Made by a program: the position numbers and the translations under genes
Shown: one piece after another, positions 36,355 through 48,685 of the stretch
Position numbering within the stretch: position 1 is the first letter of the stretch
How the letters are laid out: each line of letters starts with the position of its first letter
From: Bacteroidales bacterium
GTDB lineage: Bacteria; Bacteroidota; Bacteroidia; Bacteroidales; VadinHA17
NCBI GenBank assembly: GCA_003152835.1
Contig: PMBC01000060.1
Location: 8,333 to 69,770, forward strand
Length of the DNA: 61,438 bases
Direction of reading: 5' to 3'
The notes under the pieces: generated by a model
Told to the model about the DNA's origin: nothing
Database searches by the model: none
Seen by the model: the letters and a program-made list of their open reading frames with translations, nothing else

Positions 36355-37914
36355 TTATTTTGTTTTGATTTTCCTGACAACATCAATCACTGTACCGTCA
36401 ACCCATTTGATTGCAGCAACTATCTTATCTTCAAACTCAGCTTTCCGGGGCTTTCCGCAGATTCTTTCAGCTTCATCCTTAAGTTCCTTAATTGTACGTA
36501 CAGGCAATCCACTGCCTTTCAAGCTCTTGATCAAGTCTTTTCGAAGCGGGTTTATTGCTATACCTCTTTCAGTTATGATAACATCAATCAGTTCGCCCGG
36601 ACCGCACAGGGTAGTAACCTCATCAACAATTACAGGTATTCTGTCGCGGAAAAGAGGCACAGGCAGGATGACATTCCTGGCATGAAGGCAATTCTGCCAT
36701 CCTCCAATACCATGAAGAAGATAGCCGTCGGAGTGAGTCACAACATTCCCGTTGAAATTCAGATCAATCTCTGTCGCACCCAGGATCATAATGTCCATCA
36801 TACTCGTCAGGTTACCTTTTGAATGATAATTATAGGCATTGAAAACCGGGTAAGGAATATGATGTGGGTTATTCTCAATAGATCTTACGGCATCGAGATC
36901 AAATGCCTGGGCATCCAGAATATATCCCATACTCCCCTCCTCCAGCATTTTAACCATATATTTAGTGCTGCCGCCAAAACCGAATTTTGATTTCCATCCT
37001 TTCTTTTTTAGTATCTCATCGACAAATACCGCAATGGCAAGAGAGGTACCTCCGGCTCCTGCCTGCATTGTGACGCCATCCTTCAGTATGCCTGACTTCT
37101 CAAGAAATGCAGCTGTAAGTTCAGCAATTAAAAGCCTGTCGGGACTTTTGGTGATCTGGGTGGTACCTGATACGATCTTTTCAGGGATGCCAATTTTATC
37201 GACAACAACGACATAATCAACATAGTTACCCTCAATTTCCATTGGGTAACACGGAACATCCACCAGGTTGTCCGTTACAACAATCACTTTGGAAGCGTAC
37301 ATACTGTCTGCCTTTGCATAGCCAAGCACACCGCAAGATGAATTCCCTCCGGTCCCTTTCGCGTTGCCAAAAAAATCACAGGTCGGAGCTGCAAGCACGG
37401 CAATATCAATCTTTACTTCACCATCCTGAATAGCCTGAACTCTTCCTCCATGTGACCTGAGAACAGCAGTGCCTTTCATCCGGCCGTCTGACACAAACCT
37501 CCCGAGAGGACCATTCATGCTTCCTTCAATCCTGTTTATGGTTCCATCCTCGAGGTATTTTATCACCGGATCGTTGCAGGGAAAAGAGGCGGAAGGGAAC
37601 CAAACCAGGTCCTTTACTCCCATTTTAGATGCCAGGTCAAAGACTTTGTTGCTAATGAGGTCCCCGTCCCTCAGGTGATGATGGGTTGAAATGGTCATGC
37701 CGTCGCGGAGGCCGCATTTCCTCAGAGCCTCCTCAAGTGATTTAACGACTTTGTTCCCGTCGTCGGGGAAGTCATTGCATGTGGGTATTGGCGGAGAGTA
37801 TTTACCTCCGCGTGGCCGGTGCTTTCCGACTCCTTTGAATGGTACTGCCTTCCGTCCGTTGATTTCAACCGGGACGCTCCTTCCTGCAGCATTGATAACT
37901 GTCCTGACAGCCAT
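36355..37914 (-). CDS. citF: Citrate (or citramalate) lyase alpha subunit
   Basis: 519 residues, matching CitF (about 510). It transfers the ACP thioester from acetyl to the citrate substrate, yielding citryl-ACP and acetate. Recognisable segments include [65 protein letters not shown] and [22 protein letters not shown], all typical of the family's CoA-transferase-like fold. It lies 18 bases after the CitD-CitE fusion gene. Citramalate lyase is the close alternative. Confidence 0.93.
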
Positions 37915-37932
37915 ATTTTTAAGAATAAAAGG

Positions 37933-39162
37933 TTATTTTTCTTCTGATCGCTCTTCCTTCCTCCAGTTCTCCGGTAACCTTCCAAGACTCATAGCAAGCT
38001 CAATTGTCTTCATTGCCCTGGCGACGACCGGGGCATCGATCATTTTGGATCCCAGCGCTACGACTCCTATCCCATTTTTCCTCGCATCCTCAAAAGCAGA
38101 AACGATCTTTTTTGATTTCTCGATTTCGTTTGCATCAGGCGCAAAACCTTCGTTTATAACGGGAACCTGCCTCGGATGAACGCATCCCATTCCTTCAAAC
38201 CCTAAAGCCTTGGATTTTAAAACATTCAGTCTGAGGGCTTCCATATCACCAACATCAGAGAAAACTGAATCAATGGGCTGTATACCGGCAGCTTTTGCAG
38301 CCACAATAATCCTAGTCCTTGCATAAAATGATTCATTTCCTTCAGCAGTTCTGGGAACGCCAAGATCAGAAGTATAATCTTCCAGCCCGATTGCCATTGC
38401 AACAACATTCTTTGAAGCCCTTGCTATGTCATATGAGTTCTCCACACCAAGGGTGCTTTCAATTATTGGCATTATGTAAACAGGAACGGTGATTTTATGC
38501 TTTGAAGAGATCCTGAATATTTCCGACTCCACATTAATTACCTGCTCCTTATTTTCGCATTTTGGCAGAAGAATGAGGTTTACATTATGAGGAACCACAT
38601 AGTGAAGATCTTTTAATCCGGCATCGCCCTGGTTGATCCTGACCATACGTTCAGCTCCATGGAATCCGACCTGCCTGAGGGCATTTCTTACAAGGAAGCG
38701 GGCCTCATCCTTTTTTTCAGGAGCAACAGAATCCTCAAGATCAAGTATAATGCCATCAGCTGAATGAAGACCTGCATTGATCATCATGCCCGGATTATTT
38801 CCGGGGATATATAACCGCGAGAACCTCCTTCTTCCTGCGGTGGTCGAATACCTGTTTTCCTTAAGCATGTCGGGCAGATATTCGAGATCAGAGTTCATCA
38901 GTCTCATTATTGCAGCTTCCATCCGGGCTGCAATCACAAAAGGCAAAGCTCCCGAATCAGTGACTGTTAAAGCAGCATCTTTGATCTTATAGAACTTTAA
39001 TATCGTTTTAACAAGATCTTTGATTGAGTCTCCGTAGAGAGTTTTGACCTTCGATGACAGATCAATTTTTATTCCTCCCTTTTCTGTTAGCTCCAGTTTA
39101 ATTTCACAATCGGATCTTACCTTTGGACCGGCATTTCCAGTAGTTGCAATCTTGCTGCTCAT
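37933..39162 (-). CDS. citDE: Fused citrate lyase acyl carrier protein-beta subunit (CitD-CitE)
   Basis: A 409-residue fusion. Residues 1-90 are a CitD-type acyl carrier domain: the segment AGPKVRSDCEIKLEL aligns with the CitD phosphoribosyl-dephospho-CoA attachment region, making Ser17 the likely prosthetic-group site, and SVKTLYGDSIKDLV/GALPFVIAARMEAAI follow the CitD pattern. Residues about 110-400 are CitE (HpcH/HpaI aldolase-like): RLYIPGNNPGMM, ADGIILDLEDSVAPEKKDEAR, RMVRINQGD, VYIMPIIESTLGV, CVHPRQVPVIN. The ATG at 39162, 5 bases after the mce stop, is preferred to a TTG at 39171. No citC, citX or citG is in the window, so prosthetic-group supply must come from elsewhere. Confidence 0.88.
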   Translation of the reverse strand: MSSKIATTGNAGPKVRSDCEIKLELTEKGGIKIDLSSKVKTLYGDSIKDLVKTILKFYKIKDAALTVTDSGALPFVIAARMEAAIMRLMNSDLEYLPDMLKENRYSTTAGRRRFSRLYIPGNNPGMMINAGLHSADGIILDLEDSVAPEKKDEARFLVRNALRQVGFHGAERMVRINQGDAGLKDLHYVVPHNVNLILLPKCENKEQVINVESEIFRISSKHKITVPVYIMPIIESTLGVENSYDIARASKNVVAMAIGLEDYTSDLGVPRTAEGNESFYARTRIIVAAKAAGIQPIDSVFSDVGDMEALRLNVLKSKALGFEGMGCVHPRQVPVINEGFAPDANEIEKSKKIVSAFEDARKNGIGVVALGSKMIDAPVVARAMKTIELAMSLGRLPENWRKEERSEEK

Positions 39163-39167
39163 GGTGG

Positions 39168-39584
39168 TCAAAACTTATTTGTTTTATTTTCGCAAATCTC
39201 AATAAGCACACCAGAGGTTGATTTTGGATGAAGGAATGCAATTTCAAGTCCTTCGGCTCCTTTCTTCGGTTTGGCGTCAATCAGCCTCACACCGTTATCT
39301 TCCGCGTGCTTAAGCTGCTTTTCAATATCATTGACCGCAAAGGCTATATGGTGTAAGCCTTCACCCCTGCCTGCAATAAATTTTCCTATAGCGCTATCCG
39401 GGTCAGTCGATTCAAGCAATTCAATCTTGGTATCACCGACTTTGAAGAATGCAGTTTTTACTTTCTGGTCCCTGACCTCTTCAATATTATAACATTTCAG
39501 GCCTAATACTTTCTCATAAAATTCAATTGCGCTCGCAAGGTTGTTCACAGCTATTCCAATATGCTCAATATGTGATGGTTTCAT
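39168..39584 (-). CDS. mce: Methylmalonyl-CoA epimerase
   Basis: 138 residues of the vicinal-oxygen-chelate superfamily. It interconverts (R)- and (S)-methylmalonyl-CoA. The metal-site motifs are IEHIGIAVNNL (His), KIELLEST (Glu), EGLHHIAFAVNDI (His) and SGVLIEICE (Glu). It heads the operon with citDE, citF and rubredoxin, whose starts follow within 5-18 bases of each stop. Epimerase links propionate/succinate routes to adenosylcobalamin-dependent mutase; the adenosyltransferase in this window would help supply the cofactor. Confidence 0.93.
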   Translation of the reverse strand: MKPSHIEHIGIAVNNLASAIEFYEKVLGLKCYNIEEVRDQKVKTAFFKVGDTKIELLESTDPDSAIGKFIAGRGEGLHHIAFAVNDIEKQLKHAEDNGVRLIDAKPKKGAEGLEIAFLHPKSTSGVLIEICENKTNKF

Positions 39585-39695: not shown

Positions 39696-41264
39696 TTAAA
39701 AGGGAAACTCAGATGGAACGGGTTTATCGGACTGGACATTTACCGGTTTTTTTGCTGCCAGATGCACCGGGTTTCCATCTACATAAATAGCCTTATAAGG
39801 AACAACAGGACAAGCAAATTCACAATGGCCGCAACCAATGCATATTTCAGCATTGGTTTCCGGGATAAGAAGGTTTCCTTCGTAGGGAATCATATAAACA
39901 GCTTTGGTGGGGCAAGCTTCAGAGCAAGCGCCACAGGCTGTTTTTTCAGTTTTTACAATACAATTGTCCTTTATAAAATTTGCCTTCCCTAGCTGCGTAA
40001 GCTTTTTTGCTTCCAGCGCCAGCGGACGAAGTGCATATGTCGGGCAGACATCTGTGCATTTAGTACAATTATATGCACAGAAACCTTTATGGTAATTCAT
40101 AACAGGCTGCATCATTCCTGCAACGCCATAATCAAGCCATGCAGGCTGTAAAACTTTGTTAGGGCATATTGTAATGCAAAGTGAACATGCAGTGCACTCC
40201 TTGTTAAAATCCGAAACAGATCCGGCACCGGGAGGACAAACCGGGGATGTTTTATTTTCCTTAACCGTCGATTCTTTCTTAGGTATCGGAGTTTTTTTAT
40301 CCTGCCCCCGCAACAATTGCGGTAACCCTAACATAAGCAATAATGTTCCGGCAATGAATTTCCTTTTATCCGTATCGACGTCATGGGGTGTCTCGCTTTT
40401 CTTTTTAAGCTTAACAAAGCCGAATGAGATGGCCTTTTCGGTACAGTTATTTATACAGTTGAAACAACCAACGCACCTGCTGACATCGACATGAGGCTGA
40501 AGAAAATCGATGCAGGAGGATTTGCAGCCAAGAGAGCATCGCCCACACCTGGTACATTTGCTTTCATTGATGTTTATTCTCAGAACAGAGATCTTTGAAA
40601 CCATTCCCAGCAGAGTCCCGACCGGGCATATCATATTGCAATATAGTCGCCCTTTTGCCAGAGACATCGACCCGATCAGAAGAAAGAAGGCAGCAGGAAC
40701 GCTATACGCAAGCAGCTTAAAACCTTTGATTGTGATATGATCGAGGGTGTAGATATCGAATTTATGGAGAATCCCTGCAATGAAATTATTAATGACTATC
40801 ACAGCCGGTTTCCCGAAATAGGTCATAAACCTCCCGAATATGCTGTAAGGATCGAGGAGCGTTATGAGATAAAGTCCCCAGATCATTGTAACAATGAGTG
40901 TTGCCGCAAGAAGAGCATACCTGATAATGGTATGAGGCTTCTTAAATCCGTATCTTCTGAACTTTCTCCTTATCCTGCCGCCAATTCTGCTGAAAAGATC
41001 CTGTCCGATCCCAAGCGGGCATAAAAAGGAGCAGTATGTCCGCCCCGAAAGAAGTGTAAGTAAAATGACAGCAATAAAACCTATCGACACCATCGATCTC
41101 AGATCGAAGTACTTTAATGCCGATGGTACGAACTGAAGGTAAAGAAGAATATTGAGATACTTTACAGGGATAATGCTTTTGAAATCAGCAAAAACAATAA
41201 AAAATCCTATAAAAACAACAGAAGCAAACAGAATACGGAATTTCCTCAGTAAAGGTGACCTCAT
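39696..41264 (-). CDS. Membrane polyferredoxin, NapH-NapG-like fusion
   Basis: 522 residues. The N-terminal half has about five membrane helices with paired cysteine motifs CSFLCPLG and CNMICPVG and two 4Fe-4S motifs (CTRCGRCSLGCKSSC, CVGCFNCINNC), as in NapH/NosR-like quinol-oxidising proteins. Near residues 297-318 a basic stretch and a second hydrophobic segment (DKRKFIAGTLLLMLGLPQLL) look like an internalised signal sequence. The rest (about 340-500) carries four more cluster motifs, as in NapG-type ferredoxins. It follows the DUF362 gene by about 6 bases. It probably moves electrons across or along the membrane. The ATG at 41264 is preferred to a TTG one codon earlier. Confidence 0.82.
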   Translation of the reverse strand: MRSPLLRKFRILFASVVFIGFFIVFADFKSIIPVKYLNILLYLQFVPSALKYFDLRSMVSIGFIAVILLTLLSGRTYCSFLCPLGIGQDLFSRIGGRIRRKFRRYGFKKPHTIIRYALLAATLIVTMIWGLYLITLLDPYSIFGRFMTYFGKPAVIVINNFIAGILHKFDIYTLDHITIKGFKLLAYSVPAAFFLLIGSMSLAKGRLYCNMICPVGTLLGMVSKISVLRININESKCTRCGRCSLGCKSSCIDFLQPHVDVSRCVGCFNCINNCTEKAISFGFVKLKKKSETPHDVDTDKRKFIAGTLLLMLGLPQLLRGQDKKTPIPKKESTVKENKTSPVCPPGAGSVSDFNKECTACSLCITICPNKVLQPAWLDYGVAGMMQPVMNYHKGFCAYNCTKCTDVCPTYALRPLALEAKKLTQLGKANFIKDNCIVKTEKTACGACSEACPTKAVYMIPYEGNLLIPETNAEICIGCGHCEFACPVVPYKAIYVDGNPVHLAAKKPVNVQSDKPVPSEFPF

Positions 41265-41270
41265 CAAAAA

Positions 41271-42191
41271 TTACATTTTAATTCGTTTGATGTTCAAAGT
41301 ATCAAGCTTCATATTTCCCAGGCCCATCTTATGCGCAATCGCTATATATTCTATTCTTTCGGTTTCGACTCCAAGCATTTTTGCTGCAGCAGCATCCGCT
41401 GCGACCCAGTCGGCAGCAATAATCTGAGATTTCATCTGAACCACATCCTCCTTTGAGACTCCTTGCGGACCATGCTTAACCATTACATTATAGCAATCAA
41501 CAACGTTCAGCACAGGTTTCTTTTCAAATAATGCATAATCTGCAATGCACTGGTTCAAATCATTTGAATGCCAGTATTGCCTGTCCCAGACAACTCCCAT
41601 CATATTTTTAAGTGAACATGTCATCCTTGTGGAATCATGATCCTTGAGGACAGGTACATTGATGAATACATCCGTTTCGAGAAGAAGTTCATGTACTTTT
41701 GCGCTTTTCAGCTTTACTCCTCCCGGTATCTCAACTTCATGATAATAGCTTTCCGAGTTGCCCGGAACAACTTTTGCCCCAGCGCTTTTTGCAGCTTTCT
41801 CAATACCTGAAGTTTTGTAGCAGTTCACCCAATTATCGCAGGTATGGTCGAAAACATAAACTTCTTTTGCGCCTGCCTTAAAGCAATGTTCAATTATTCT
41901 CCTGACAAGCAGTGGATTGGTATTGGCAGCAAGCTCGGGAATTACATCCCACCCGATATTGGGCTTAATCAGGACTTTCTGGCCTTTATGAACGAAAGTT
42001 CCCATTCCTCCAAGCTCCTGTATCCCAAGATCAAACATTGCGTCGGGTTCGCCACCCATCAGCGCTACCATGTCATATTTTGACAGAGCATGCTCTGTGT
42101 TCCAGAGTTTATCATAACCACCAAGGCTGAGCGCTGCTCCAGCAGCAAGTCCGGCTCCAGCCGAAGTTTTAAGAAAGTCTCTTCTTTTCAT
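41271..42191 (-). CDS. Tat-exported DUF362 domain protein
   Basis: 306 residues. The N-terminus is a twin-arginine-type signal (MKRRDFLKTSAGAGLAAGAALSLGG), with Arg-Arg-Asp-Phe-Leu-Lys, so it should be exported folded, probably with a bound cofactor. The remainder is DUF362: KVLIKPNIGWDVIPE, VFDHTCDNWVNCYKTSGI, VPVLKDHDSTRMTCSLKNMMGVVWDRQYWHSNDLNQCIADYA. No classical CxxCxxC cluster motif is visible. The immediate neighbour is the polyferredoxin, forming a two-gene unit. The ATG at 42191 starts the Tat motif, nine codons inside the longest frame. Function unknown. Confidence 0.8.
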   Translation of the reverse strand: MKRRDFLKTSAGAGLAAGAALSLGGYDKLWNTEHALSKYDMVALMGGEPDAMFDLGIQELGGMGTFVHKGQKVLIKPNIGWDVIPELAANTNPLLVRRIIEHCFKAGAKEVYVFDHTCDNWVNCYKTSGIEKAAKSAGAKVVPGNSESYYHEVEIPGGVKLKSAKVHELLLETDVFINVPVLKDHDSTRMTCSLKNMMGVVWDRQYWHSNDLNQCIADYALFEKKPVLNVVDCYNVMVKHGPQGVSKEDVVQMKSQIIAADWVAADAAAAKMLGVETERIEYIAIAHKMGLGNMKLDTLNIKRIKM

Positions 42192-42371
42192 ATTTTCAGT
42201 TTCCCCGTAGGTAGTCAATTATGAGATACGTGTCGAAAATACAATTTTTTTTTATTATTCTGTTATGAATTGTATGTAGTATATTAGCGACCAGTATTGA
42301 TTTAACTATTTTTAATATTGTAAGGCAATCAGGCGTTCAGAGTGTGATGTTGTACCAAATGCTTTAATGAG

Positions 42372-43562
42372 ATGAAAATCCTTTACTACGACTGTTTTTC
42401 AGGGATAAGCGGCGATATGAACCTTGGTGCAATGATTGATCTTGGAGTTGATAAAACATTCCTTACCAGTGAACTTAACAAACTGAATCTGAAGGGATGG
42501 GAGCTTCATGCTGAAAAGGATCAGCGTCACGGGATTGGCGGAACAAAAGTTACTGTAAAGCAGACGCACCATAAACATGCACACAGGCATCTTTCCGACA
42601 TAGAAAAAATTATCAGGGAATCATCATTAGATCAGAAGACAAAAGATCTTAGCATGAAAATATTCATGAAAGTGGCGCTTGCAGAGGCCTCTATCCATGA
42701 AATACCGGTTGATGAGGTTCATTTTCATGAAGTTGGTGCAATCGATTCTATAATCGACATTGTCGGAGCCGCAATATGTTTTAATTCTTTGAATCCGGAT
42801 GCTGTATATGTCACTCCTGTTGAGCTTGGAAGCGGTTTCGTTAAATGCGATCATGGCACTCTGCCTGTACCAGCACCGGCAACAGCCGAGATAATTAAAG
42901 GTATTCCATCGAAAACGGGTGGGGTCAATTTTGAAGCAACAACCCCGACTGGGGCAGCAATTATTGCAGCACTTGGAACACATTTCAACACCGGCACTCC
43001 GATAAGGATTGATAAGACAGGTTATGGTGTTGGACATAAGGAGAATCCAGCTGTTCCCAACCTTCTGCGAGTATTTACTGGTGAGGCTGAAGAACAAGCC
43101 TCCGGCCATGATGCTCTTCTTCTGGAATGCAATATTGATGACATGAACCCTGAATTTTTTGAGTATATCTCTGAGAAACTTTTCGTGGCCGGAGCATCAG
43201 ATGTATACATATCCGGCATAATCATGAAAAAAGGGAGGCCTGGAAATATCCTGAATGTTATCTGCGAACCAGGACTCGGAGGAATTGTGAAGGAGATAAT
43301 ATTTACGGAATCAACCTCGGTGGGAATCAGGTCATTCCCCTTTAGAAAGGATACCCTTTCGAGAAAGTTTGAGGTTATAAAGACCCCTTATGGAAATGTT
43401 ACGGTTAAACATTCATTTTATAATGAAAAAGAGGTCTCCTGCAAACCCGAATTTGAGGAGTGCAGAAAGATTGCCATAGAGAAAGGCATCCCCATAAAAG
43501 ATATTTACAACAATATCATGGCTTTGATTGTTATAGGAGATTATGACAAAAGACTTAAATGA
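42372..43562 (+). CDS. larC: Nickel-pincer cofactor biosynthesis protein LarC (nickel insertion)
   Basis: 396 residues. LarC inserts nickel into the pyridinium dithiocarboxylate precursor in a CTP-dependent step. Family markers are YYDCFSGISGDMNLGA at the N-terminus, a metal-binding histidine patch HHKHAHRH (residues 66-73), VHFHEVGAIDSIIDIVGA, and the later NIDDMNPEFFEYISEKL. It is encoded as one continuous frame, unlike the split LarC1/LarC2 form reported from Lactobacillus plantarum. Its stop overlaps the larE start (ATGA). Confidence 0.93.
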   Translation: MKILYYDCFSGISGDMNLGAMIDLGVDKTFLTSELNKLNLKGWELHAEKDQRHGIGGTKVTVKQTHHKHAHRHLSDIEKIIRESSLDQKTKDLSMKIFMKVALAEASIHEIPVDEVHFHEVGAIDSIIDIVGAAICFNSLNPDAVYVTPVELGSGFVKCDHGTLPVPAPATAEIIKGIPSKTGGVNFEATTPTGAAIIAALGTHFNTGTPIRIDKTGYGVGHKENPAVPNLLRVFTGEAEEQASGHDALLLECNIDDMNPEFFEYISEKLFVAGASDVYISGIIMKKGRPGNILNVICEPGLGGIVKEIIFTESTSVGIRSFPFRKDTLSRKFEVIKTPYGNVTVKHSFYNEKEVSCKPEFEECRKIAIEKGIPIKDIYNNIMALIVIGDYDKRLK

Positions 43563-44362
43563 CAGAAGACAAATCGATTAAGCTTAATTCAATTCTGAAA
43601 GACCTCAAATCATTTGTTATTGCATTCTCAGGAGGTGTCGACAGTTCGTTTCTGGCATACAGGGCAAGTTCACTCAGTAGCCTGCAGATGGTTGCAGTTA
43701 CATTAAGTACTCCATATGTACCATCACGTGAGATAAATGAGGCTATTGAATTCACAAAAGTTCATGGTATAAAACATAAAATCTTAGATCTGCCTCTCCC
43801 GGAAATTATTAAGCACAATCCGGTTGAAAGATGCTACCTCTGTAAAAAGATTCTCTTCAGTAAAATATCTGAATATGCTTCAGAAAATGGGTACAGGTAT
43901 ATTATTGACGGTACTAATGCAGATGATACCGGAACGCTCCGTCCGGGACTGAAAGCGCTGAAGGAGCTGTCCGTAAGGAGCCCTCTTGCTGAGGCCGGCA
44001 TTACGAAAAAGGAGATCAGGGAATTCCTTCTGAAAGAGGGTCTGGTTATCTGGGATAAGCCAGCAATGGCTTGCCTTCTTACCAGGATTCCCTATGACAC
44101 GGATATAAGTGAAGGAATGCTCAGAATGATTGAAAATGCAGAGGATTATCTGTTTGAAAAGGGTTACCCTGGGACCAGGGTCAGGGTACATAATGATATT
44201 GCCAGAATTGAGTGCATGCCGGGATACCTTGAAAAGATTATCCATGATCCTGAAAGGGAACTTATTGTCAGCGACCTGAAAAATTTAGGATTCAGATTTA
44301 TATCTTTGGATCTTGAAGGTTACAGGTCCGGAAGCATGGATCAGGGAAGGAAGAATAAATGA
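43559..44362 (+). CDS. larE: Sulfur transferase LarE (nickel-pincer cofactor)
   Basis: 267 residues. LarE adenylates the precursor and replaces carboxylate oxygens by sulfur. The PP-loop is SGGVDSS (residues 24-30). Cysteines are at 92 and 95 (ERCYLCKK) and at 172 (PAMACLLTRIPYD). Cys172 corresponds, as far as I can align, to the sacrificial Cys176 of L. plantarum LarE. The additional C92-x-x-C95 pair is the arrangement associated with a 4Fe-4S-type LarE (inference). It has ATGA overlaps with larC before it and larB after it. Confidence 0.92.
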   Translation: MTEDKSIKLNSILKDLKSFVIAFSGGVDSSFLAYRASSLSSLQMVAVTLSTPYVPSREINEAIEFTKVHGIKHKILDLPLPEIIKHNPVERCYLCKKILFSKISEYASENGYRYIIDGTNADDTGTLRPGLKALKELSVRSPLAEAGITKKEIREFLLKEGLVIWDKPAMACLLTRIPYDTDISEGMLRMIENAEDYLFEKGYPGTRVRVHNDIARIECMPGYLEKIIHDPERELIVSDLKNLGFRFISLDLEGYRSGSMDQGRKNK

Positions 44363-45108
44363 CTGGAAAAGAAATTGAAAAACTGCTGAATGAGATCAGG
44401 AACGGTACCAAAAGCGTTGATGAAGCGCTTGAGGTGCTGAAAGATTTTCCTTATACCGATCTTGGTTATGCCAGGATCGATCATCATCGGGAGATAAGGA
44501 CCGGTTATCCTGAGATTATATATTGCGCCGGGAAGACCATTGAGCAGGTAACTGGAATATTCGGGGTGATGGCCGGGAAGGAAAATAACGTAATGGGTAC
44601 GCGGGCATCCTCTGAAATGTACGAGGCAGTTAAGAAAATAGCGCCTGAGACTATTTATTTTGCTGAAGCCAGGATAATCTCATTGTGTAAAAAAACTCCG
44701 GAAATACCCGATTCAAGCATTGCCATTATAACTGCAGGCACGTCAGATATCCCTGTTGCTGAAGAGGCAGCTGTCACTGCTGAACTGCTTGGCAATAAGG
44801 TGGTGAGGATCTATGATGCTGGTGTTGCCGGAATCCACAGGCTGGTTGACAAGCTTCCTGAAATAAGGAAATGCAGGGTTATAGTTGTCATTGCCGGAAT
44901 GGAGGGCGCACTGGCCAGCGTTGTCGGGGGACTGGTTGACAAACCGGTAATAGCTGTTCCTACCAGTGTAGGATATGGCGCTAATTTCGGAGGCATATCT
45001 GCCCTGCTTGCAATGCTCACCAGCTGCTCTTCAGGAGTAACTGTGGTAAATATCGACAACGGTTTTGGCGCCGGATTCTCAGCCAGCATGATCAACAAGA
45101 TGAAGTGA
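44359..45108 (+). CDS. larB: LarB, pyridinium-3,5-biscarboxylate mononucleotide synthase
   Basis: 249 residues. LarB carboxylates and hydrolyses nicotinic acid adenine dinucleotide to give the cofactor precursor. The catalytic domain resembles PurE: KENNVMGTRASSEMYEAVK, IAIITAGTSDIPVAEEAA, GGLVDKPVIAVPTSVGYGANFGG, and SCSSGVTVVNIDNGFGAG. The cysteine in SCSSGV is residue 223, which aligns with the substrate-bonded Cys221 of the L. plantarum enzyme. Overlap with larE confirms the operon. larA, the lactate racemase that uses the cofactor, is absent from the window. Confidence 0.93.
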   Translation: MTGKEIEKLLNEIRNGTKSVDEALEVLKDFPYTDLGYARIDHHREIRTGYPEIIYCAGKTIEQVTGIFGVMAGKENNVMGTRASSEMYEAVKKIAPETIYFAEARIISLCKKTPEIPDSSIAIITAGTSDIPVAEEAAVTAELLGNKVVRIYDAGVAGIHRLVDKLPEIRKCRVIVVIAGMEGALASVVGGLVDKPVIAVPTSVGYGANFGGISALLAMLTSCSSGVTVVNIDNGFGAGFSASMINKMK

Positions 45109-47383: not shown

Positions 47384-48685
47384 CTACCTGCTTCTCCCGG
47401 ATGAACCGCCGGATGATGAGCCGGATGATGAGCCAGATGATCCTGAAGAAGAGGACCTTGATTCTGAAGAGCCACTAGATCCGGATGAATAACTACTGCG
47501 GGATTCAGATCCACTGCTAAAGGATCCTGAAGAATATCCGGAGCCACTTTCAACAGATCTCCTGGAAGGCATTGAATAAGATCCCTGGTTATATGATGAA
47601 GAAGATCTACTTTGTCCTGAAGGAGCTGAATAACTGCTCCTGGGAGGATTGCTCCGATACGATTGGGTGTTTGAATATGACCGGCCGGAATTACTTTCAG
47701 TATTGACCCTGCTGTTATTATATGAAGGTCTAGTGCTCATTCTCGGATTGCTGTAGCTTGGAGTGTAGGTCCTGTTGGTTCTGTTGTATTCAGGTCTTGA
47801 GGTCACCGAACTTCTTGATGTGGGGACAGATGACCTTACATTACTGGTAACTGTCCTGCTGCCTGACTGTGAGATCCCAACGCCAGGTGATCTCCGCGAA
47901 CCAGATACAGATGACATACCGCCAGCAGATCTTTGTGTGGCTGTATTTGTTCCTGAACCACCGGACCAGTAGCCTGATCTTCTGGAGGAACCGTTAGCCG
48001 GACTCATGGTTTTGTTCCATGATGATGAATAGTTGCTTTGAATTTCTCTCCTGCCGTAAGCGATAGGATTCATATCAGAATTGCCGCTGTAATTAGAATA
48101 ATAGGGCGAATATCCTCCGCCATAATATCCTCCATAATAGCCTCCGAACATATTGCCATAATATCCACCATACATGTTTCCATACCCACCGTACATGTTT
48201 CCATACCCACCGTACATGTTTCCATACCCACCGTACATGTCTCCATAATAGCCGTAATCAGAATAGAAAGGGTCGTAATATGGTGATCCGAAACCCATGT
48301 ACATTGAAGGGTAGCCCCAGCTGGAATAGAACGGGTCTCTCCAGTAAGGATAGAAATAGTTTCCGTAGAAGCTTCTCAGCCTTCCGGAGTAGGAATCGAA
48401 ATTATAATTATAGATATTCTGGTTTGATAAAGCATTGTTGTTTGCCGCAGCATCAGAATATTCATCAGATACGAGGGTATCGGAAGCATAAATGTTATCG
48501 TAATAGTCCTTTGCCTGCAAATTACTCTCTGGAGTCTGGTTAACCGCAGATCTCTTCACCCTGGTCACCGGCTGGTCTGAATGACTGTAGTAAAGATCGT
48601 CATACTCAAGACCCGTATAAATGCTTGAAGTACAAGATCCTAATGTCAGGATTGCAAGGATAGATATGTAATTAATTGCTTTCAT
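47384..48685 (-). CDS. Tyr/Gly- and Ser/Arg-rich repeat lipoprotein
   Basis: 433 residues. A lipoprotein signal ends in LTLGSC (Cys18). Residues about 100-205 are Tyr/Gly/Met-rich with heptad-like tandem repeats MYGGYGN (three perfect copies plus variants). Residues about 215-433 are a long, mainly Ser, Arg, Gly, Tyr, Pro low-complexity tail with few acidic residues. No catalytic domain is seen. Such composition suggests a disordered, adhesive or matrix-like surface protein (inference). It resembles no family I can name beyond similar Bacteroidota low-complexity lipoproteins. It lies 78 bases upstream of the FadL-like gene on the same strand. Confidence 0.8.
   Translation of the reverse strand: MKAINYISILAILTLGSCTSSIYTGLEYDDLYYSHSDQPVTRVKRSAVNQTPESNLQAKDYYDNIYASDTLVSDEYSDAAANNNALSNQNIYNYNFDSYSGRLRSFYGNYFYPYWRDPFYSSWGYPSMYMGFGSPYYDPFYSDYGYYGDMYGGYGNMYGGYGNMYGGYGNMYGGYYGNMFGGYYGGYYGGGYSPYYSNYSGNSDMNPIAYGRREIQSNYSSSWNKTMSPANGSSRRSGYWSGGSGTNTATQRSAGGMSSVSGSRRSPGVGISQSGSRTVTSNVRSSVPTSRSSVTSRPEYNRTNRTYTPSYSNPRMSTRPSYNNSRVNTESNSGRSYSNTQSYRSNPPRSSYSAPSGQSRSSSSYNQGSYSMPSRRSVESGSGYSSGSFSSGSESRSSYSSGSSGSSESRSSSSGSSGSSSGSSSGGSSGRSR
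48171..48233. repeat. 21-bp tandem repeat coding for MYGGYGN units
   Basis: Three perfect copies of a 21-base unit (TACATGTTTCCATACCCACCG on the plus strand, split here: TACATGTTTCCATACC then CACCG) run from 48171 to 48233, followed by a degenerate fourth. Because the unit is a multiple of 3 it can expand or contract without breaking the reading frame of the lipoprotein gene. Confidence 0.85.

Follow-up and report, generated by a model that had tools for sequence, protein, structure and literature searches.

What cofactor does an exported DUF362 protein carry, and which reaction does it serve, when its gene is tied to that of a membrane-bound electron carrier? The question is posed by two adjoining genes in a 61,438-nucleotide stretch of DNA from a Bacteroidales bacterium of the VadinHA17 lineage (GenBank assembly GCA_003152835.1, contig PMBC01000060.1, positions 8,333 to 69,770; the whole stretch is called the window below), which encode a DUF362 protein with a twin-arginine translocation (Tat) signal and a membrane polyferredoxin. 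On the opposite strand, 180 bp from the start of the DUF362 gene, begins a larC-larE-larB cluster, whose products make the nickel-pincer nucleotide (NPN) that lactate racemase LarA uses as its cofactor. Our preferred reading, to which we assign a probability of about 0.42, is that the pair forms a periplasmic redox unit in which the DUF362 subunit may hold a LarA-like cofactor, here NPN, and in which electrons may pass to or from the quinone pool via a NapH/NapG-like fusion protein.

The DUF362 protein and its polyferredoxin partner

An initial annotation of the window had paired a Tat-signal DUF362 gene with a membrane polyferredoxin gene, and Pfam, TAT_signal and Fer4 matches confirm this at the same coordinates (Table 1). 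The DUF362 gene is the upstream one, and 3–6 nt separate its stop from the polyferredoxin start. The DUF362 domain (PF04015) is complete (E = 9.5e-49, 166.6 bits versus a cut-off of 24). At its beginning the protein has a twin-arginine sequence, MKRRDFLKTS, that matches the TAT_signal profile (24.5 bits versus 22.7) and in which R3 is invariant and R4 present in at least 90% of 43 aligned rows; the protein is a predicted Tat substrate.

The partner matches Fer4_5 (NapH type) twice and nine other Fer4 families above cut-off. Four hydrophobic segments are accompanied by CxxxCP motifs at positions 79 and 210 (C79, C83, C210 and C214) and followed by nine cysteines at 238–275, sufficient for two [4Fe-4S] clusters, all of them invariant in 33 rows. 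A further helix at ∼299–317 comes from a model with a mean predicted local distance difference test score (pLDDT) of 68.7, which gave no structural match at E 0.001 and from which we took helix positions alone. The NapG-like C-terminal part carries motifs for four more [4Fe-4S] clusters at 358–486, so that the protein resembles a single-chain fusion of NapH and NapG. In 66 of 71 rows the last hydrophobic helix is preceded by [KR]R-x-[FLIVM] (27 with RR and 39 with KR). This motif makes a periplasmic C-terminal domain probable and suggests that a folded four-cluster domain is moved by Tat to the periplasm, beside DUF362. The earlier proposal of a periplasmic redox pair acting on an unspecified substrate is in this respect strengthened by the Tat signal, the tight pairing and the probable location of the four-cluster domain, and we consider it probable that the two proteins form some sort of periplasmic redox unit.

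The pairing is widely conserved. An orthologue of the DUF362 protein (E 3e-40 or better) is present in 106 of 117 genomes of the window's family, and pair and larC are kept together in 30/30 same-genus loci (the best 30 matches, the window's own included). Among 18 further family loci, picked by hand (17 of other genera plus a divergent one of the same genus, with paralogue loci L055 and L056 not counted), all have the pair and 16 have larC beside DUF362; of the other two, L048 starts at a contig end and L054 shows 1.1 kb without larC. A phylum-wide sample, made up of 218 Bacteroidota genomes (that of the window among them) with at least 90% completeness requested, gave the polyferredoxin beside pair-type DUF362 in 23 of 24 further loci, the exception being G276 and L081 being a distant case (37%/29%). 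Finally, 80 loci from named genomes were compared, the best among at least 574 and drawn from Bacteroidota, Ignavibacteria, Competibacteraceae, Desulfobacterales, Goldbacteria and other groups; the partner adjoins DUF362 in 76 of them. Of the remaining four, L123 and L154 break off at a contig end, and in L151 and L178 the partner is truly absent. The neighbourhood comparison proposed in the initial annotation, which named an unconserved pairing as the outcome that would refute it, hence finds the pairing conserved.

One such pair, from Parabacteroides distasonis (L214:7001-9538, 52% identity), lies between unrelated genes on a replicon of 169 kb that is recorded as a plasmid; no lar gene is annotated within 7 kb, and this species may offer a relative for laboratory work.

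Predicted fold and conserved pocket of DUF362

DUF362 was described in the initial annotation simply as uncharacterised, which overlooked its Pfam clan, its structural model and the NPN-synthesis genes next to it. No solved structure of DUF362 was found by sequence, and we compared a model built from 43 sequences (mean pLDDT 89.9) with solved structures. The 19 best Foldseek matches are all of the LarA family. By VIA-align, 12 LarA-family entries reach Z-scores of 16.2–18.4 over 205–213 residues with root-mean-square deviations of 2.7–3.3, and the next unrelated fold, that of alcohol dehydrogenases, scores 5.7. In most rows residues 45–276 of the model are aligned with ∼33–270 of LarA, that is, with its NPN-binding domain. 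The substrate-binding C-terminal domain of LarA, which includes K298, has no counterpart, as the matches end at about LarA residue 270 and the DUF362 chain ends at 306. DUF362 is thus predicted to have the fold of the LarA NPN-binding domain. Both families stand in one Pfam clan according to a part of PMC11770544 in which DUF362 is used only as an outgroup, and in the open-licence papers searched nothing beyond this use ties DUF362 to the nickel-pincer cofactor. We do not file the protein as a LarA, because its sequence has no match to the Lar_N profile at E 0.001, R75 and H108 of LarA are not clearly represented and the C-terminal domain is missing.

With residues numbered from MKRRDF, 33 positions are invariant in the 43 rows, many of them around the LarA-like pocket; they include K76-P77-N78, H185 and K195, and H208 is nearly so. 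A second alignment of 77 rows comprised 36 larC-linked loci, 15 that have larC elsewhere in the genome and 26 from genomes without it; three further rows, whose larC is truncated or weak, were set aside. H185 and K195 are invariant in 43/43 and 77/77 rows. They belong to a D174-x10-H185-x9-K195-N pattern whose final Asn is likewise invariant and whose D174 is replaced by Asn in 2/77 rows. PMC7583248 assigns R75, K184 and H200 of LarA to holding NPN and D72, H108, H174 and K298 to catalysis. The spacing of D174, H185 and K195 equals that of LarA D163, H174 and K184 without a gap, and it is from this spacing and the aligned ranges that we infer a residue-by-residue equivalence. H208 is a possible nickel ligand.

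No Cys is conserved throughout the 43 rows, C103 and C215 coming close, and no iron-sulphur family matches the DUF362 protein. In the absence of an invariant Cys an iron-sulphur cluster within DUF362 itself is therefore unlikely; a cofactor, if there is one, would be of a different sort.

A residue separating larC-positive from larC-negative pairs was also sought, and the conserved pocket has none. Position 194, next to K195, is Leu instead of Met in 26/51 rows with larC and in 0/26 rows without; we rejected it as a larC marker and take the difference for descent, 21 of the 26 Leu rows being in the window's own clade.

Linkage of DUF362 to the NPN genes

larC stands beside DUF362 in 36 of the 80 named-genome loci. 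The arrangement is mostly divergent in Bacteroidota, and a colinear order DUF362-polyferredoxin-larC is found in Competibacteraceae (L131, L149, L176) and in G182, a Bacteroidota genome. When the character 'larC beside DUF362' is mapped on a tree of 82 rows, it needs 10 changes, at least six of them forced by well-supported branches, so the link has been repeatedly gained or lost. In the 44 unlinked loci the divergent slot of larC is taken 12 times by a conserved membrane protein of ∼170 amino acids (e.g. L129:9396-9923), which occurs there in 0/36 linked loci and for which no Pfam match was found in the one member scanned; no widely shared substrate gene was seen among the neighbour clusters listed for these 44 loci.

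A second DUF362 subfamily, of 499 amino acids, directly precedes larC-larE-larB in G257 and G261 (one genus), two genomes with no Lar_N match. A search for this subfamily on plasmids gave no match. The two blocks (L099:6921-11230 and L100:7554-11869) lie amid genes that, judged by eye, resemble those of polysaccharide biosynthesis, and whether they serve an NPN-linked step in surface sugar synthesis is a question we would raise.

Across the phylum sample, any DUF362 is present in 13 of 15 larC-positive and in 20 of 203 other genomes (Fisher exact test, P = 1.8e-10, ignoring descent; the count includes the window's own genome, and a sixteenth larC genome, G312, fell below cut-off and was dropped). 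Seven larC-positive genomes have no Lar_N match, and five of these have DUF362. In the control set of 14 genomes, those of Synechococcus elongatus and Haloferax volcanii combine larC with DUF362 and give no Lar_N match, which points to DUF362 as a possible NPN user.

The identity of the NPN user where LarA is missing was raised as an open question by Nevarez et al. (mBio 2024, PMC11796402). We tentatively propose, while regarding it as doubtful at this breadth, that DUF362 represents a second class of NPN-binding proteins, serving where larB, larC and larE are present and LarA is absent (e.g. in most cyanobacteria), and that in its Tat-exported branch NPN would serve as an open redox cofactor, connected to the quinone pool. 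DUF362 is in any case a named and widespread candidate for that role, with a distinct sequence and a predicted LarA cofactor domain, and its binding of NPN can be tested with the expression system published in PMC11796402. If DUF362 binds NPN, nickel-pincer chemistry extends to exported, quinone-linked redox proteins; if not, the genomes that have LarA-type proteins with a full NPN site and no larB, larC or larE still need an explanation. We also considered the nickel wires of cable bacteria and dropped them: no paper joining cable bacteria, nickel and LarC was found in the open-licence literature. Their nickel cofactor is described as new and unresolved in PMC8238962.

The idea that larB, larC and larE are orphans in the window's genome is not simply true. 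This genome has one Lar_N protein (L001:1414-2688), a putative hexonate epimerase by its NF052594 match (664 bits versus a cut-off of 500), whose gene adjoins uronate-like genes as judged by eye. A second NPN user is still compatible with its presence.

As further observations on larC neighbourhoods, an annotated larA or lactate-racemase-domain gene adjoins larC, or lies two genes off, in each of the three annotated LarC plasmid records examined; of two further plasmid records, one carries no annotation and the other has neither LarA nor DUF362 within 7 kb. In G235 (L087:3-5621) larC-larE-larB is flanked on both sides by genes that by eye resemble Tat-signal aldo/keto reductases.

Proposed mechanism and its alternatives

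According to the preferred reading, DUF362 would be a shortened LarA, an NPN-binding domain without the substrate-binding C-terminal domain. LarB, LarE and LarC would make NPN in the cytoplasm, where it would be tethered to Lys195, with His185 taking part and His208 perhaps serving as nickel ligand; the folded holoprotein would then exit through Tat, and the polyferredoxin would connect it to the quinone pool. LarA takes a hydride from a 2-hydroxy acid and gives it straight back, an internal transfer that amounts to racemisation; in DUF362 electrons could leave or arrive via the iron-sulphur chain, which would give net oxidation or reduction. The resulting activity might be that of a dehydrogenase or a reductase of small hydroxy or keto acids. 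We put the odds of the NPN step at a little under one half.

Several observations weigh against NPN as the occupant of the pocket. LarA R75 and H108 have no clear counterpart in DUF362, position 116 being mostly His or Asn and no invariant His being found in its strand in the 77 rows; H208, although present in 77/77 rows, lies at Lys+13 and not at Lys+16 as does LarA H200, and it is missing in the distant L081. Profile–profile comparison is weak as a proof of homology to LarA. A first, shallower alignment found nothing, and with a deeper one HHalign picked the same His/Lys register unprompted (P = 7.7e-4), but a LarC control reached 8.2e-4 (1/10 unrelated profiles); because this control scores like LarA, the sequence test alone proves little and the case rests on the structural match. 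A search for larC in the genomes behind all 44 unlinked loci, whose completeness is not stated, was positive in 18 (three of them weak or truncated) and negative in 26. Of the latter 24 also have neither larB nor larE above cut-off, and the exceptions, G339 and G359, hold fragments. The phylum sample agrees, with larC missing in 17 of the 25 genomes with pair-type DUF362 (three larC-less genomes are apparently shared by both sets, having the same match places). The conserved pocket residues are identical with and without larC in the 77 rows, and because genomes devoid of larB, larC and larE keep the same pocket, NPN cannot be required in every lineage unless it is obtained by another route. 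In addition, G235 and G244, as well as Methanocaldococcus jannaschii and Corynebacterium glutamicum among the control genomes, have larC and neither DUF362 nor a Lar_N match. For C. glutamicum a LarA homologue is reported in PMC7583248; since it was missed, the Lar_N search is not fully sensitive and 'no Lar_N match' says less than 'no LarA'. The absence of the NPN genes from so many pair genomes and the unchanged pocket would fit a periplasmic module for redox reactions or metal-centre maturation that is independent of NPN, its Lys/His pocket binding something else and larCEB adjoining it through shared regulation. MauM/N, NosR and NapGH serve other periplasmic proteins, and the unrelated genes around the P. 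distasonis pair, together with Bacteroides ihuae, which has DUF362 and no larC, speak in the same direction. We regard such a module as a serious contender, if short of even odds, as the larCEB linkage recurs in separate lineages and with a second DUF362 subfamily, and the DUF362 model has the LarA fold.

Nor is the absence of larB and larC decisive against the use of NPN, because LarA homologues likewise occur without them: 13 of the 21 Lar_N-positive genomes of the phylum sample have no larC, and none of the 13 has larB above cut-off. Either bacteria without larB, larC and larE have another source of NPN, or the cofactor is dispensable to both protein families. In a different role, the pair might furnish cytoplasmic LarA enzymes with NPN or a related compound, by salvage, repair or an alternative route, without being a catalyst itself. 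A LarA type resembling the putative hexonate epimerase of the window's genome, assigned by a Lar_N score of ∼22–45 bits (for the own copy, by NF052594; 9 of the 12 sequences were read), is found in 12 of the 218 genomes, all of them within the 25 with pair-type DUF362 and 0/193 among the others (Fisher exact test, P = 2.9e-13, ignoring descent), and 8 of the 12 have no larC. Nineteen rows of this type were read: the seven NPN and catalytic residues are all present in 17, and the other two are truncated before the first three. The overlap may reflect descent or function, and common descent may account for it; 13 of the 25 pair genomes are without this LarA type, other larC-less Lar_N proteins occur without the pair, and the export signal of DUF362 also speaks against this role, which we think improbable. 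We likewise give little credit to a structural or electron-docking DUF362 protein that is cofactor-free and non-catalytic. The lack of an invariant Cys and of an iron-sulphur family match would suit it, but the many invariant positions around the LarA-like pocket would not, and neither would the Tat signal, a frequent sign that a cofactor is loaded in the cytoplasm.

The larC-less Lar_N proteins that occur apart from the pair, known by profile match alone, are those of G280, G283, G295, G323 and G331, genomes without larC, without larB above cut-off and without DUF362. Hexonate-epimerase LarA proteins with a full NPN site (L193-L210) were found in genomes without larB, larC and larE, including the single-contig G240 and G304.

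Relation to known systems

Among known systems, the DUF362 protein comes nearest to the LarA superfamily (Lar_N/DUF2088, IPR048068), with which it shares the Pfam clan, the predicted NPN-domain fold, the D-x10-His-x9-Lys spacing and the larCEB neighbourhood. It differs in having a Tat signal and a polyferredoxin partner, and in lacking the substrate-binding C-domain, a clear H108 or R75 and a Lar_N match. Its sole NCBIfam match is to NF052623 (Npun_F2552 family, a name that presumably points to Nostoc punctiforme), which belongs to the same Pfam family, has no named function and is matched at 59.6 bits, far below its cut-off of 500. The polyferredoxin resembles NapH and NapG (TIGR02163, NF007012) in its two membrane CxxxCP motifs, its two-cluster motif and its four-cluster domain behind a [KR]R helix. 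Unlike them, it fuses both halves in one chain and scores well below both cut-offs (92.2 versus 213.05 and 46.9 versus 269 bits), and there is no nitrate reductase among the annotated neighbour genes of the window pair. MauM/MauN and NosR are membrane ferredoxins that serve periplasmic enzymes and are linked to quinones; the present pair is alike in joining a quinone-linked ferredoxin to an exported partner and unlike in that this partner is DUF362.

Layout of the locus and neighbouring genes

Coordinates of the features are given in Table 1. No consensus promoter was found in the 180 bp that separate the DUF362 gene from the divergent larC. In the LarE of the window C92, C95 and C172 fit the three-cysteine type with a non-sacrificial [4Fe-4S] cluster, a type described in PMC13329287.

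Table 1. Features at the DUF362–polyferredoxin locus, in window coordinates
Feature	Coordinates	Strand	Details
Methylmalonyl-CoA epimerase gene, downstream neighbour	39168..39584	-	TIGR03081, 159.3 bits versus cut-off 114.95
Membrane polyferredoxin gene	39696..41264	-	522–523 amino acids; ATG at 41264; open reading frame 39696-41267
DUF362 protein gene	41271..42191	-	306 amino acids; likeliest start ATG at 42191 (MKRRDFLKTS); open reading frame 41271-42218
Intergenic stretch between divergent DUF362 and larC	42192..42371	.	180 bp; presumed shared promoter region
larC, nickel insertion into NPN	42372..43562	+	PF01969, E 1.7e-144; TIGR00299, 214.8 bits versus cut-off 90
larE, sulphur insertase	43559..44362	+	TIGR00268, 283.8 bits versus cut-off 150
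larB, pyridinium carboxylase of NPN synthesis	44359..45108	+	NF033503, 295.9 bits versus cut-off 175

Downstream of the polyferredoxin lie genes for methylmalonyl-CoA epimerase and citrate lyase, a neighbourhood that recurs in loci of the window's family; the citrate lyase part (36355-39171), found near the pair in that family, consists of citF and a fused citD-citE (acyl carrier protein and beta subunit). The window's genome has four further DUF362 genes (L002, L003, L005, L006), and in three of them (L002, L003 and L005) ferredoxin motifs are found in the same chain as DUF362, by Pfam in L002 and by NCBIfam matches below cut-off in L003 and L005. On the other side of the locus, at 47384-48685, the window encodes a Gly/Tyr/Ser-rich protein with internal repeats and a lipoprotein-like start.

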